Source of the DNA: Acidobacteriota bacterium
Lineage (GTDB): Bacteria; Acidobacteriota; Vicinamibacteria; Vicinamibacterales; CAVVIG01
DNA: 40,037 nt
Assembly: GCA_003222535.1 (NCBI GenBank)
Contig: QHWJ01000231.1
Span: forward strand, 1 to 40,037
Direction of reading: 5' to 3'
This document shows, in pieces, positions 23,996 through 32,962 of the stretch. Below the pieces are notes generated by a model. The model saw only the letters and a list, made by a program, of their open reading frames with translations. It had not been told where the DNA came from and ran no database searches. The translations under genes were made by a program, and so were the position numbers. The first letter of the stretch is position 1. Every line of letters begins with the position of its first letter.

Positions 23996-26599
23996 TCAAT
24001 GAGGGCCCGTGACGGGCCCTCGATCTTCGGTAATCGAGCCGCCGGCCACCCTCTCGCCCTGGCGGAGCCAACGCGGCGTTTCGCCGCGACGGAGCGCCGC
24101 TGCGGCCTGCCGCAAGTCGATTCGCCCGGCGATGTTCGTTTGTGCCATCCGTTCCAGGAAATTGCTCACGGCCTGGCGCTCGCCCCGCGCAACGAGATCA
24201 CGAATGAGATGCCAACGCGACACGACGTCGTCCGCATACGTCAGTTCCTCGGACGCCGGCGCCTCTGCCGCCTGCCTCAAGTAGCCGATGGCCTTGTTCC
24301 TGTCACCGTCGCGAAGAGCCAGCGCGCTCAACGTCATGTTCGCGGCGTAAATCGCCGTGCCGTGATTCGGATGATTCCGGAACTTCGGCGCCAGCTTCAG
24401 TGTGTCTTCCGCGTATCTCCCGGCCTGTGCTCGTGCGAGCTCGAGACGGCCTCGAAGATTAGAGTCGTCCCACCGGGCGATGTCCTCCACGGTCCCGTAT
24501 GCGTTTTGGGCCAGATGGGGGAGTTGTTCGAATCGCTCCAGTTCCGGCAACGCGGCGACGTGAGCGTCAAGCGAAGCTGGCGCTATCCGCCACAGCGGCT
24601 CCCTGTGTTTCAGCTGAGATCGCACGCCGAGGAGCGTGGTGTGCGCCAGAACAGCTTGCGGGTTCATCTGCAGTACTCGCTTGAGGCACGACTCGGCCCA
24701 CGGCGCAGGATCGACGCCCATCCATGGGCGGCTGCCGCGACGAGACAAGAACCACCCGACTGCCGTCAGCAGCATTTCATCGGTCGATTCGCCGAGCTTT
24801 CCTCGAACGAGCGTTGCGTAAGAAGAAAGCGGTTCGGCCACGCTCAGCGTTCGCATGCTGTTCCGGCCGGCCGGCGCCTCGGAGCCAACGAGCACGCTCG
24901 TGTAGAACCGTCCCAGCCGTGCGGCCCACGGACCTTTCGGTTCCAGCGCTCGCGCCCGCAACAGCATCTGCTCCGCCAAGGGTTTGTCGGCCACCTCGAG
25001 AAAGTCGGCAGCGTGTCCAAGCGAAACAGCATTCACGTCCGGTCGAGTTGTTTGCGCGAGCCAACTCGCTTTCGCTTGCGCATACCCAATCGGATCGCCG
25101 GGAAAGAACGGGGCAAGATCCTTCGGGAAGATCCGCGCCTCAAACGCACCGGCGAGGTCCGAATCCGGCTGGTGATCGATCAGCCAGAGGATGTGTGCCC
25201 GCCTCGCCGCGAGAAGCCTGCGGTCGACAACTTTGTTCGCAACGAGAGGGTTGTTTTCGATTCCCACCGCGGTCGAAGAAGACGGACCGTTTTCCCACCC
25301 GACCGCGGGTCTGGTTTCGTACTGCACCCAGTAGCTCGTGAGAAACCGCTGTAACGCGGCAAGGTCTCCCGGATTCTCTCTGACCGCGGCTTCAAGCGAT
25401 TCGACCGGTCCTGGATCCGCGTCCCAGTCGACATTCGCGAAGGACCGCCACTGGTTCCACTCGATCCGTTCGAGCTCGGATCGAAGCGCTCTGTCGCGCT
25501 GTTCAAGGGGGGAATTCTCATGGAACGACGCCGGCGATGGCTGGCAGGCGGCCGCGAGCAGAATCGCGCTCACACAGCTCACAGCGAGGACGCCCTTGCT
25601 GGCTGCAGACGTCTGTTGCGGGACGTCGCCGCTCAGCGTGCGCTCGATTCGCTGCTGCAGCAAACCGCTTCCGTCGATTCCCACACGCAGCCACGAGATC
25701 CGTCCGCGTCGCTGACTGACGGCGCGCGCCATGTCGAGCAGGATCTCCGCATAGGCGGCACGCTCACCGAGCACGGACAGGGCCACGTCGTCACTGGCCT
25801 GCTCGGCGGTCGCGGCGAGCGTGCGCTCGAGCCACCACGACAGGGGATGAAACCACAAAAGGCAGCGATTCAGGTGAGCGAAGAACGCGACGAGCAGATC
25901 GCGCCGGTGGACATGGGCGACTTCGTGCGCGAGCACGGCGCGGAGCTTCTCGCTCGACCAGCGCGTCCACGTCACCGGAAGCAGAATCGTCGGCTTCAGC
26001 ACGCCAACCGTAACCGGCGCGGCGACGACGTGTGACGCACGAATGTCCATGCCTCCCTGGCTTCGCAAGAAGGCCAGGCAATCGCGCTGCGGGCTGACAC
26101 ATTCGCTTGCACGAGCAATTCGCACCGCGCCCCACCACCCCAACAGGAAGCGAATCAGCATCGCTGCGGCCACAACGGCGTACAAGGTGAGCACAGCGTT
26201 CGAGGTGCGAAGTGCGAGCTGCGGAGTGCGAGGTGCGAGGTGGCTGGCTTCGACCGGTGCCGACTCGTCAACACGCACAGGGATTGGATCCGCGGACGAG
26301 GTCCGGTCCGAGTCCGGCGCGGCTTCGATGATGCGAACGGTCCGGGAGAGTCCGGGCGTTCCGATGTCGACGTCCGCTGGAAGCGACGGTACAGCAAGTG
26401 AAAACGGCGGGGCGACGGCGGGCACACAGTACGGCAGCACCGGCATCAAGAGCATCGCGAACAGAACGGCCGTCCACGACGCATGGCGCACGGCGCCGGC
26501 ACGTACCCGGAGAGCGGCAAGCGCACCTGCGACGAGAACGGCGGCGACCGGCGCTCTGATGGAGGTGTCGGCGAGCATGCGGAGGAATGCGCCGCTCAT
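23996..26599 (-). CDS. M56-family (BlaR1-like) membrane metallopeptidase with helical-repeat C-terminal domain
   Basis: An 867-residue membrane protein. Hydrophobic helices lie at ~15-30, ~42-66, ~136-156 and ~334-352. The zinc-peptidase motif HEVAH is at 225-229, with ASDDVAL (268-274) downstream, as in BlaR1/MecR1 and other M56 peptidases that cut BlaI-type repressors. Unlike BlaR1 it has no penicillin-binding sensor domain. The outer part (~360-867) is helical with TPR-like units (FLEVADKPLAEQMLLRARAL, TLSALALRDGDRNKAIGYLR). A Cys in LAAACQPSP follows the last helix. It overlaps blaI by four bases (ATGA). Codons ~119-134 are made of short GTGCGAG-type repeats and look like an absorbed intergenic repeat. 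The signal sensed is unknown. Confidence 0.85.
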   Translation of the reverse strand: MSGAFLRMLADTSIRAPVAAVLVAGALAALRVRAGAVRHASWTAVLFAMLLMPVLPYCVPAVAPPFSLAVPSLPADVDIGTPGLSRTVRIIEAAPDSDRTSSADPIPVRVDESAPVEASHLAPRTPQLALRTSNAVLTLYAVVAAAMLIRFLLGWWGAVRIARASECVSPQRDCLAFLRSQGGMDIRASHVVAAPVTVGVLKPTILLPVTWTRWSSEKLRAVLAHEVAHVHRRDLLVAFFAHLNRCLLWFHPLSWWLERTLAATAEQASDDVALSVLGERAAYAEILLDMARAVSQRRGRISWLRVGIDGSGLLQQRIERTLSGDVPQQTSAASKGVLAVSCVSAILLAAACQPSPASFHENSPLEQRDRALRSELERIEWNQWRSFANVDWDADPGPVESLEAAVRENPGDLAALQRFLTSYWVQYETRPAVGWENGPSSSTAVGIENNPLVANKVVDRRLLAARRAHILWLIDHQPDSDLAGAFEARIFPKDLAPFFPGDPIGYAQAKASWLAQTTRPDVNAVSLGHAADFLEVADKPLAEQMLLRARALEPKGPWAARLGRFYTSVLVGSEAPAGRNSMRTLSVAEPLSSYATLVRGKLGESTDEMLLTAVGWFLSRRGSRPWMGVDPAPWAESCLKRVLQMNPQAVLAHTTLLGVRSQLKHREPLWRIAPASLDAHVAALPELERFEQLPHLAQNAYGTVEDIARWDDSNLRGRLELARAQAGRYAEDTLKLAPKFRNHPNHGTAIYAANMTLSALALRDGDRNKAIGYLRQAAEAPASEELTYADDVVSRWHLIRDLVARGERQAVSNFLERMAQTNIAGRIDLRQAAAALRRGETPRWLRQGERVAGGSITEDRGPVTGPH
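24001..24021 (-). terminator. Strong GC hairpin over the 3' end of the M56 gene
   Basis: GAGGGCCCGT (24001-24010) and ACGGGCCCTC (24012-24021) are exact complements, and the stop codon of the M56 gene is at 23996-23998. The stem encodes the last residues (RGPVTGPH). No T-tract follows, so it is at best a non-canonical terminator or an mRNA 3' stabiliser. Confidence 0.45.
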
Positions 26600-26979
26600 T
26601 TCTGTTTCTTCACCTTTCTCGCAAGCCGATTGATCTCCTGGCGCGAGATCACGTGCTCATCGACCATGCCGACGAGGAATTGCTCCACCGACCCCGAGCA
26701 GAAACGGTCGATGATGTGACGAACGGCGCGGGCCGCAACGCCGCTCGCGGGAATTCGAGCTCGGTACACGAACGTATTCCCCACAACCTGATGACTGAGG
26801 TAGCCGCGCGCTTCCAGACGTCGCAAGAGCGTTCGTACGCTCGAATCCTTGAGCGGGTGCGCGAGCCGGAGCGCCTCTCGCACCTGCTCCGAGGTCGCCG
26901 CTCGCTTCGACCAGATGCAGTTCAAGATGGCCTGCTGGAGCTCGGTGAGAGGCCGCCTGGCTGTGTTACGTGATGTCAC
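26596..26979 (-). CDS. BlaI/MecI/CopY-family transcriptional repressor
   Basis: A 127-residue winged-helix repressor with the BlaI pattern: LTELQQAILNCIW (~11-23), SEQVREALRL, DSSVRTLLRRLEARGYLSH (recognition helix and wing, ~45-63), VYRARIPASG, and a C-terminal dimerisation helix (VEQFLVGMVDEHVISRQEINRLARKV). Such repressors are inactivated when the M56 partner cuts them, and the partner gene follows here with an ATGA overlap. The start is GTG 26979, which lies at the centre of a long palindrome likely to be its own operator. It controls its own operon and may control other sites in the genome. Confidence 0.93.
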   Translation of the reverse strand: MTSRNTARRPLTELQQAILNCIWSKRAATSEQVREALRLAHPLKDSSVRTLLRRLEARGYLSHQVVGNTFVYRARIPASGVAARAVRHIIDRFCSGSVEQFLVGMVDEHVISRQEINRLARKVKKQK

Positions 26980-26996
26980 GTGACGATCTGTAACAC
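26963..26996. promoter_or_regulatory. Palindromic operator overlapping the blaI start codon
   Basis: A 34-bp dyad centred between 26979 and 26980. The outer arms GTGTTAC (26963-26969) and GTAACAC (26990-26996) are exact complements, and the inner palindrome GTCACGTGAC (26975-26984) has the same centre; 12 of 17 pairs match. BlaI-family repressors bind palindromes at their own promoters, so autoregulation is likely. The position over the GTG start suggests direct blocking of initiation. Confidence 0.65.
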
Positions 26997-27062
26997 TTCG
27001 ACGACCGAGAGGGCAAGTGTTTTTCCTGGCGGCGTCCGGGCGCCGAGGAAGCCTGTTTGAGG

Positions 27063-29622: not shown

Positions 29623-31500
29623 ATGTCGCAGCTGTTTCGGCGGAAGCCGATCGCGGCTCTCGTCGAGGACACCAGAGGCGAGCACAGCCTGAAGCGGGCG
29701 CTCGGCGCGGGCGATCTGATCATGCTGGCGATCGGCGCGGTGATCGGCGCCGGCATCTTCGGGGCGATCGGCACCGCGGCGGCTGGACAGATCGGTCCCA
29801 ACGGCGAGGTCATCCGCCAGGGCGCCGGGCCGGCGCTGGTCTTCTCGTTCATCCTCCTTGGCGGCGCGTGCGCGCTGGCGGGGCTCTGTTACGCGGAGCT
29901 CGCCGCGATGATTCCGCAGGCGGGGAGCGCGTACGCGTATTCGTACGCCACGCTCGGCGAGCTGGTCGCGTGGATTATCGGCTGGGACCTGATTCTCGAG
30001 TATGCGGTCGGCAACGTGGCTGTCGCGATCTCGTGGGGCGATTACTTCAACACCCTGCTGCGGGGTTTCAATGTGCAGCTGCCGGTCTGGCTGACCACCG
30101 GCTATCGCACCGCACTCCTCAGCCCGGACCCGCAGACCCACGGCTTGATCGCGTCCGCCCCGCACATCGCCGGGATTCCCGTCCTCGTCCACGTGCCGGC
30201 CTTTTCGATCGTGATGCTGATCACGTGGCTGCTGCTGCGCGGCGCGCGCGAGAGCGCGACGGCCAACAACATCATGGTCACCATCAAGCTGGTGGCGCTG
30301 TCGCTCTTTGTCCTTGTCGGCGCCACGCATCTTCACACCGGGAATTACCACCCGTTCGCGCCGAACGGGTTCACCGGCATCCATCAGGGCGCCGCGATCG
30401 TGTTCTTTGCCTACATCGGCTTCGACGCCATCTCGACCGCGGCCGAGGAGACGGTGAACCCGCAGCGCAACCTGCCCATCGGGATCCTCGGCGGGCTCGC
30501 CGTCTGCACGGTGATCTACGTCATCGTCGGCGGCGTGCTGACGGGCATGGTTCCGTACAAGGAGCTGGCGGTCGCGGATCCGCTCGCGCGCGCGCTCGAG
30601 CTCTCCGGATTCAAGACCGTCGGCTGGTTCGTCGCGCTCGGCGCAGCGGTGTCGATGTCGGCGGTGCTGCTCGTGTTTCAGTACGGCCAGCCGCGCATTT
30701 TCTTCGCCATGGCGCGCGACGGCCTGCTCCCGAAATGGGCCGCCCGCCTCAATCCGATCACGAAGATTCCGGCGACGACGACGATCATCACGGGGATTTT
30801 CGTGGCGGCGTGGGCGCTCGTCGGCGACGCGGCGGAAACCTACGACCTGACCAACATCGGGACGCTGTTCGCCTTCATGCTCGTCAGCATCGGCGTGCTC
30901 GTGCTGCGGTGCATCGAGCCCAGTCGACCTCGACCGTTCAACGTACCGCTGGCAGGTCCGGTCTGTCTGCTGTCCACGCTCGGCTGTGCCTTCATCATGT
31001 ACGGTCTGCCGTCAACCGCCTGGAAGCGGTTTGCCGTGTGGCTCGCCGTAGGACTCGCGACATATTTCATATATGGGATTCGGTATAGCAGGCTGAGGCT
31101 GCTCACAGAGGACGCTGTAAGATCAGATTCGCTCAGTGAACTGTCGCTGCCAAAGTTGCTCTTCTCATGGAGAGGCCGGACATCACTTGAGGGATTCTGG
31201 CTGGGATTGACATTCGCGCTTCTGCTTCCGGCCACGATCATTATCGTACCGCTTCCAGAGCGCTGGGTTCTGGCGATTCCATATGTTCTATTGGTTGTCA
31301 TCGCCGCCGCTGCAAGTATTTGGATATCGCTGGTCGCGCAAGTGAAACGGTGGCACGACAGAAACAAGTCTGCCTGGATGATTCTCGTCAACATCATTCC
31401 GGTGATAGGAATCTCCTGGATGTTGATCGAACTGGGATTCGTCAAAGGCACGATCGGTGCGAACCGATACGGCAAGGATCCCGCGGCAAACGGCGCTTGA
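29623..31500 (+). CDS. APC-superfamily amino-acid permease fused to a C-terminal DUF805 membrane domain
   Basis: A 625-residue inner-membrane protein. Residues ~25-480 are a standard APC/cationic amino-acid transporter-like permease (GDLIMLAIGAVIGAGIFGAI, CYAELAAMIPQAGSAYAY, FFAYIGFDAISTAAEETVNP, TTIITGIFVAAWALVG) with about 12 helices. After YFIYGIRYSRLR and a short linker, residues ~500-625 match a complete DUF805 domain: LLFSWRGRTSLEGFWLG at its start, VKRWHDRNKSAWMILVNIIP in the middle and GTIGANRYGKDPAANGA at the end. DUF805 is normally a separate small membrane protein. From about 31060 the DNA is visibly less GC-rich, with more ATA, AGA/AGG and CTT codons than the permease part, which suggests that the tail was acquired later. 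Substrate is probably an amino acid. Confidence 0.9.
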   Translation: MSQLFRRKPIAALVEDTRGEHSLKRALGAGDLIMLAIGAVIGAGIFGAIGTAAAGQIGPNGEVIRQGAGPALVFSFILLGGACALAGLCYAELAAMIPQAGSAYAYSYATLGELVAWIIGWDLILEYAVGNVAVAISWGDYFNTLLRGFNVQLPVWLTTGYRTALLSPDPQTHGLIASAPHIAGIPVLVHVPAFSIVMLITWLLLRGARESATANNIMVTIKLVALSLFVLVGATHLHTGNYHPFAPNGFTGIHQGAAIVFFAYIGFDAISTAAEETVNPQRNLPIGILGGLAVCTVIYVIVGGVLTGMVPYKELAVADPLARALELSGFKTVGWFVALGAAVSMSAVLLVFQYGQPRIFFAMARDGLLPKWAARLNPITKIPATTTIITGIFVAAWALVGDAAETYDLTNIGTLFAFMLVSIGVLVLRCIEPSRPRPFNVPLAGPVCLLSTLGCAFIMYGLPSTAWKRFAVWLAVGLATYFIYGIRYSRLRLLTEDAVRSDSLSELSLPKLLFSWRGRTSLEGFWLGLTFALLLPATIIIVPLPERWVLAIPYVLLVVIAAAASIWISLVAQVKRWHDRNKSAWMILVNIIPVIGISWMLIELGFVKGTIGANRYGKDPAANGA

Positions 31501-31522
31501 GGAGTCCACGTGTCCACGACGT

Positions 31523-31591
31523 ACAACGCAGAAAACGCGGAACTCGCAGAGAGGAATTCTGGCTCTGCGGTTTCAGCGGGTTCTGCGTTGT
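31523..31591. repeat. Imperfect 29-bp inverted repeat of the CGCAGA type
   Basis: ACAACGCAGAA (31523-31533) is the exact complement of TTCTGCGTTGT (31581-31591). Inside them the arms continue to CGCAGAG and CTCTGCG with a few mismatches. It lies 22 bp after the permease stop and may act as its terminator. Confidence 0.75.
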
Positions 31592-31657
31592 TCGTCCTGA
31601 GCTGAGATATGCAGCCGCTGAATGGCGCCAGCAAGCGTGACATGTTCACGGCATTGG

Positions 31658-31737
31658 AACGCGAAGCCCGCGAAGCACGCATCCCTCGACAGGCTCGGAT
31701 GAAGCTAAAGATCTGTCTGCTTTGCGGGCTTCGCGTT
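31658..31737. repeat. 20-bp inverted repeat before the CoA-transferase gene
   Basis: AACGCGAAGCCCGCGAAGCA (31658-31677) and the complement of 31718-31737 differ at one position. The loop contains CTCGACAGGCTCGG, close to the core of the 24-bp units found inside the next gene. The right arm ends 20 bp before the start codon. Confidence 0.75.
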
Positions 31738-31756
31738 GATCGTCGCCGGCGCTGCC

Positions 31757-32962
31757 ATGCGACCGCTTGACGGCGTGCGTGTGCTCGACGTGACGCGCCT
31801 TCTCCCCGGCTCGTACGCGACGCTCCTCCTGGCGGACCTCGGCGCCGACGTCGTCAAGGTCGAGGACCCGCGCGGCGGCGACGGGATGAGGACGCTGCCG
31901 CTCGCGGACGGCCGAAACGTCTACTTCGAGCTCCTCAACCGCAACAAGCGCAGCGTCACCCTCGACTTGAGATCGCCGGATGCGGCCGCCGTCCTCGATG
32001 CGCTCTGCGCGCACGCCGACGTGATCGTCGACAGCTTTCGTCCGTCCACGGCTCGCCGGCTCCGCGTCGATCCCGCGGTGCTTCGCGCGCGGCATCCCCA
32101 TCTCGTCTGCGCCTCGATCAGCGGCTTCGGTCAGAGCGGGCCGTACGCCGAGCGCGCCGCGCACGACATCAACTACCAGGCGCTTGCCGGATTGCTGTTC
32201 GCTCGTGGGTCGACCCGTTCGACAAGCTCAGGGCAGGCCCATTCGGCAGGCTCAGGGCAGGCCCGTTCGACAGGCTCAGGGCAGGCGGGCTCAACACGAG
32301 CGAAAAAGGATGCCCTCGCCCCGAGCGCGTCGAAGGGCGAGCCTCGGATGCCGGGTCCGCTCGTGGGGGACATCGGCGCCGCGACGCAGACGGCAATCGG
32401 TGTCCTCGCGGCTCTTCTGCTGCGGGCGCGAACGGGCGGGGGCAGCGTCGTCGATGTGTCGATTCACGAGGCCGCGATGGCCTGGTCGATGTTTCCGTCC
32501 ACGCCCGATCTCGAGAACGCCTGCTATGCCATGTACGAGACGGCGGACGGCCACTGGCTTGCGCTCGGGGCGCTCGAGCCAAAGTTCTGGATCGGCTTCT
32601 GCGAGCGCATCGGACGGCCCGACCTCGCGCCGCTTCAGCACGCGCCGGACGAAGAGCGGGCGCGGGTGTTGCGCGACGTGCGTGAGGTGATGCGCGGCCG
32701 CACGCGAGACCAGTGGCTGGCGCACTTCGCAGACGCTGACGTCTGTCTCACGCCGATCAACACACTGGCTGAGGCGCTCGCCGATCCGCATGTCGCCGCG
32801 CGAGGTGTCGTATCGCGCGACCGAGGAACGATACACATCACGCCGCCGCACGCCGAGGTACGACCCGCCCCCGCGCTGGGTGCCGACACCGATGAGGTTC
32901 TCGATGCCGCAGGAATCGGCGTGTCCGAGCGCTCGCGTCTGCGTGCTGCCGGCGTTATCTGA
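31757..32962 (+). CDS. CaiB/BaiF family III CoA transferase, alpha-methylacyl-CoA racemase-like, with in-frame repeat insertion
   Basis: A 401-residue cytoplasmic enzyme acting on acyl-CoA thioesters. The N-terminus is typical (GVRVLDVTRLLPGSYATLLLADLGADVVKVE). Later come NRNKRSVTLDLR and ISGFGQSGPYAERAAHDINY, where Asp137 in HDINY corresponds to the catalytic Asp of alpha-methylacyl-CoA racemases; the racemase branch is therefore more likely than formyl- or carnitine-CoA transferase. Codons ~148-197 (GSTRSTSSGQA...) are foreign to the family: they are three 24-bp repeats plus flanking repeat DNA, inserted in frame between ALAGLL and PGPLVGDIG. The enzyme may still fold, with a 50-residue low-complexity loop. 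ATG 31757 is chosen because homology begins at MRPLDGV; a TTG at 31736 is also in frame. Confidence 0.88.
   Translation: MRPLDGVRVLDVTRLLPGSYATLLLADLGADVVKVEDPRGGDGMRTLPLADGRNVYFELLNRNKRSVTLDLRSPDAAAVLDALCAHADVIVDSFRPSTARRLRVDPAVLRARHPHLVCASISGFGQSGPYAERAAHDINYQALAGLLFARGSTRSTSSGQAHSAGSGQARSTGSGQAGSTRAKKDALAPSASKGEPRMPGPLVGDIGAATQTAIGVLAALLLRARTGGGSVVDVSIHEAAMAWSMFPSTPDLENACYAMYETADGHWLALGALEPKFWIGFCERIGRPDLAPLQHAPDEERARVLRDVREVMRGRTRDQWLAHFADADVCLTPINTLAEALADPHVAARGVVSRDRGTIHITPPHAEVRPAPALGADTDEVLDAAGIGVSERSRLRAAGVI
32214..32285 (+). repeat. Three 24-bp tandem repeats within the CoA-transferase gene
   Basis: Units at 32214-32237, 32238-32261 and 32262-32285, each CCCRTTCGRCARGCTCAGGG followed by CAGG. 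The reverse complement has the core CCTGAGCYTGYCGAA, an interspersed repeat type seen in many bacterial genomes. As 24 is divisible by three, the reading frame is kept and each unit gives eight residues (RSTSSGQA-like). Confidence 0.9.

Follow-up and report, generated by a model that had tools for sequence, protein, structure and literature searches.

DUF805 is a widespread domain whose role is unknown and which usually forms a small, separate membrane protein, an example of which is presumably YhaH of Escherichia coli. In the window, by which we mean the whole 40,037-nucleotide stretch of DNA analyzed here (contig QHWJ01000231.1, from an Acidobacteriota bacterium of the class Vicinamibacteria), an amino-acid permease gene runs on into such a domain, and the locus raises the question of how the two came to be joined and whether their union bears on transport. 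On balance we favor the reading, which we regard as somewhat probable, that in this lineage DUF805 was added to the C-terminus of a native CAT/GkApcT-type permease, where it serves as a tethered accessory and stabilizes or tunes the transporter. To find the domain naturally fused to a transporter, one relative of which has both a solved structure and an uptake assay, offers a concrete handle on DUF805; the fusion matters only if it is expressed and kept, and a single case is a lead that says little yet on the role of the domain.

One reading frame for a permease and a DUF805 domain

The gene is a single uninterrupted frame of 625 codons from 29623 to 31500, with no stop codon between its permease and DUF805 parts (Table 1). 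Pfam places AA_permease_2 (PF13520) at residues 31-460 (E 8e-48, 163.8 bits against a cut-off of 27), AA_permease_C at residues 439-489 and DUF805 (PF05656) at residues 514-618 (E 7.5e-19, 68.7 bits in a search with the whole protein). Searched alone, the tail scores 73.5 bits, where the gathering cut-off of PF05656 is 25.7 bits, and the match starts at profile position 2 (whole protein) or 1 and runs to 111 of 111, which is practically the full length. The DUF805 motifs quoted in the first-pass annotation are present and all residues invariant in the family (GR, W, RxHD, P, N, G) are kept: when nine DUF805 domains are aligned, nine columns do not vary, and the tail matches every one of them. 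The full-length profile match, the complete set of invariant residues and three hydrophobic stretches are features that the tail shares with DUF805 proteins such as YhaH and its relatives; it differs from them in that they are usually small, free-standing proteins, whereas here the domain is fused in frame as the C-terminal part of a permease.

The first-pass annotation was also right that the permease ends near residue 480 and gives way to DUF805, as the permeases of related genomes stop at positions corresponding to residues 492-503 of the fusion protein and carry no tail. At this point the fusion protein reads YFIYGIRYSRLR, where the relatives have YFxYGxxHSxLR and a few more residues, and it goes on into DUF805 across a linker of about 18 residues. 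The permease-DUF805 fusion is present in the sequence as described, far above chance, and as a joining of two known families it is probably real, a new architecture built from parts already known. Separate translation of DUF805 from an internal start was considered and rejected, as the first possible start in the linker frame is a TTG at 31156 that lacks a clear ribosome site.

Table 1. Features of the fusion gene and of the DNA that follows it, in window coordinates
Feature	Coordinates	Strand	Evidence
Fusion gene, CAT-like APC amino-acid permease + DUF805, 625 aa	29623..31500	+	Single open frame, Pfam matches
Permease part, residues 1-492, 12-TM APC/CAT type	29623..31098	+	Pfam, phmmer, orthologue ends, predicted fold
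End of the permease, residues 430-492 (TM11-12), changing fast; onset of the codon shift	30910..31098	+	
Linker, residues 493-510, without in-frame ATG or GTG	31099..31152	+	
DUF805 domain (Pfam match residues 514-618) and short C-terminal end	31153..31497	+	Pfam, invariants, hydrophobic stretches
DNA that matches none of the permease/CoA-transferase junctions of the relatives	31058..31749	.	
Palindromic repeat, 37-nt arms, tens of genome copies	31515..31599	.	
Second palindromic repeat, 20-nt arms, several genome copies	31658..31737	.	

The whole permease part (residues 3-494) aligns with GkApcT (PDB 5oqt, 6f34; phmmer E 3.6e-127), a proton-coupled permease of the CAT family in which Glu115, Lys191 and Asp237 matter for transport (PMC5803215). 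These residues align with E126, K222 and D268 of the fusion permease, each of which is invariant among 30 aligned sequences. Because these coupling residues are kept, the permease most likely still works, and the natural expectation from its sequence is an amino-acid importer that is probably proton-coupled. The gene was not assigned to BcaP, as it scores 503 bits against a cut-off of 690 for that equivalog (NF053761). The AlphaFold model is of high confidence to about residue 490; past residue 500, where the alignment holds no related tails, pLDDT is mostly below 60. Among solved structures no convincing match was found for the tail.

Gene order and distribution of the fusion

The fusion gene occupies the native position of its permease. 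The order HNH endonuclease, IPT/NHL protein, permease, CoA-transferase III and methyltransferase is common to the window and to relatives of the same family, in which the CoA-transferase follows almost directly after the permease. The window has about 650 extra bases between these two genes, which hold the coding sequence for DUF805 and a pair of palindromic repeats, and the gap between the loss and the return of DNA similarity measures about 690 bases in the window against 45 in one relative (L151).

Several minor features of this DNA may be recorded. The two palindromes belong to different families of intergenic repeats that lie side by side, and other palindrome-like sequences were seen by eye at the same junction in some relatives. 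The CoA-transferase III gene 3' of the fusion contains an in-frame stretch with three 24-base units at 32214-32286 (CCCGTTCGACAGGCTCAGGGCAGG), pieces related to which are present elsewhere in the genome; in this gene the DNA similarity to relatives stops at about 32184-32204 and, in those cases in which it returns nearby, does so at about 32341-32350. The orthologous permease of one related genome (G063; L154:6065-7437) seems to be divided between two frames around residues 383-417, either by a sequence error or because the gene is broken. Elsewhere in the window (23999-27000, minus strand), as judged by eye, a HEVAH-bearing membrane peptidase resembling M56/BlaR1 adjoins a BlaI-like regulator and has a long C-terminal extension.

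The DUF805 tail is absent from the nearest permeases of the genome_contigs collection (80 loci) and from the permease orthologues in the 26 other genomes of the family. The same fusion, which the first-pass annotation had proposed to look for in other Vicinamibacteria, did not turn up a second time in the 193 genomes of the class, and neither another permease-DUF805 fusion nor a donor was found in these, in a phylum sample of 396 genomes, in genome_contigs or in the plasmid collection, where the best matches to plasmid permeases do not reach into the tail. A viral origin of the tail was rejected, the viral scan having found no relative of it and the phages having given one partial match. A literature search returned no description of a DUF805 fusion, its sole match (PMC9427106) being a paper whose main text does not mention DUF805. 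The fusion is known from one genome only, a draft assembly of 450 contigs, and is probably a local acquisition, so far unique. DUF805 is uncommon in the class, where 13 of 193 genomes rise above the family cut-off, and the host's one other DUF805 gene (C319) is free-standing and 34% identical to the tail. CAT-family paralogues at two loci (L171 and L172) resemble the fusion in being APC permeases with added C-terminal hydrophobic segments, but by eye these segments are unlike DUF805.

Composition and rate of change along the gene

The first-pass annotation had held that the DNA becomes less GC-rich from about 31060 and uses codons rare in the first part, and that the tail accordingly looks newer than the permease. 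The shift exists, but its onset is at about 30900-30910, near residue 430 and thus inside the permease, some 190 bases ahead of the end of that part. The codon score is 0.71 for residues 1-424, 0.04 for 425-491 and -0.23 for 492-625, and none of the 402 background segments taken from the window scores as low as the last of these; GC3 falls over the same three parts from 0.91 to 0.70 and 0.62. Since the low-GC stretch includes TM11-12, which still group with the permeases of the family, the age of the tail cannot be read from composition alone. That the tail is newer holds up on other grounds, namely the absence of DUF805 from all orthologues and the position of the extra bases, which by synteny lie exactly there; low GC and rare codons fail as its mark, starting as they do in apparently native permease sequence.

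Divergence changes at nearly the same place. Residues 1-426 place among the family's own permeases (the nearest at 88% identity), and only from about residue 425 onward is the fusion permease clearly more divergent from its relatives than these are from one another. With invariant columns defined on the eleven nearest relatives of the permease, the fusion permease departs from 4 of 37 such columns in residues 427-492, against 2 of 283 earlier (Fisher p 0.002); each relative breaks none or one in this stretch, and none shows the pattern of the window. In trees, the end branch measures 0.062 for the first 426 residues and 0.49-0.62 for residues 427-492, about eightfold longer. The latter nevertheless look like native permease sequence, as they fall in the same 12-row clade of family permeases (support 96/90).

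The faster change of residues 430-492 and the loss of their codon bias would also be expected if a stop codon had been lost beside an inserted DUF805 gene by neutral read-through, leaving the tail as a passenger without effect and the end of the permease to drift, and the equally low composition of the tail and its restriction to one genome are in keeping with this. We consider such an origin rather unlikely, as damage would be expected in a passenger that has been in place for so long, whereas the DUF805 invariants, the full length and the open frame have been kept beside a much-changed permease end, although this argument is a mild one. A different account of the same boundary is that the residues from about 430 onward arrived together with DUF805 as one piece from a fused donor, by recombination inside the permease gene. 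Codon use and divergence do shift quite abruptly near residue 430, which is 60 residues short of the end of the permease part, and the clade test does not reject a tree in which residues 427-492 lie outside the family (p 0.446, on 66 columns); even so we find this account improbable, for the best tree groups the stretch with permeases of the same family, none of the searches named above (class, phylum sample, genome_contigs, plasmids) found a fused donor, and intergenic repeats of the host genome follow the tail directly. Least credible of all, and in our judgment very improbable, is an artefact of the draft assembly, either a consensus error that masks a stop codon separating two neighboring genes (stops in the other two frames do lie close to the expected permease end, by eye) or a join of two contigs, because both flanks stand in the ancestral gene order, to which a chimeric contig would not return, the frame is correct on both sides with SRLR at the permease end matching the relatives, and the DUF805 part has no ATG or GTG start in frame, as expected of a true fusion.

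How the fused domain may have arisen and act

The reading that we favor, the gain of DUF805 by a native permease as a tethered accessory, can be set out as a sequence of events. Some 650 bases with DUF805 coding sequence would have entered the junction between the permease and CoA-transferase III genes, after which the loss of the permease stop and of the DUF805 start would have produced one protein with 12 plus 3 (or 4) membrane segments, which we infer to be made as a single polypeptide in the cell. Transport would proceed as in GkApcT, with DUF805 sitting beside the transport core, to which it is tethered, and there stabilizing the permease or tuning its activity. The rapid change of the last two permease helices may reflect accommodation of DUF805 or relaxed constraint, and could equally mean decay.

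The structure of GkApcT offers a possible parallel. Its TM11 and TM12 wrap around one side of the protein; MgtS, a small membrane protein, packs on TM5, and substrate uptake was lower in protein made without MgtS (PMC5803215). By analogy, DUF805, attached as it is behind TM12, could have an accessory role like that of MgtS. GkApcT differs from the fusion protein, however, in having 12 TM only and no DUF805, and its MgtS is a separate protein with a single TM.

The first-pass annotation had gone further, holding that the fusion ties DUF805 to amino-acid transport. This link is weak, as it comes from a single case and DUF805 has other partners in the Acidobacteriota. The nearest DUF805 domain that was found (L010, 41% identity) forms the N-terminus of a FAD_binding_4 protein from a different genome of the class and shares ELGxxKGTxGxNxYGxDP with the tail, and GYF_2 or polyketide-cyclase-like domains accompany DUF805 in other proteins of the Acidobacteriota. 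DUF805 looks like a promiscuous membrane module, and its union with such various partners makes a functional link drawn from any single fusion less secure. A bolder proposal, to which we give little credence, is that DUF805 is a general accessory module for membrane and redox proteins, captured here as a regulator of the permease, with TM11-12 reshaped for docking; if this were true, the function of DUF805 would become testable by transport assay. Studies of E. coli do not explain the domain either, YhaH being needed by some phages (PMC12548472) and having had little effect in a screen for pyruvate uptake (PMC5847655).

The fusions of DUF805 with FAD_binding_4 resemble the permease case in that the domain is joined to another protein, and differ from it in that DUF805 is N-terminal, on a flavin oxidase, and no permease is involved. 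They lie at L010:1297-2997 (plus strand), in the class of the window, and at L102:1-1824 (minus strand), in the phylum but outside the class. This architecture is thus recurrent and perhaps more informative on DUF805 than the permease fusion.
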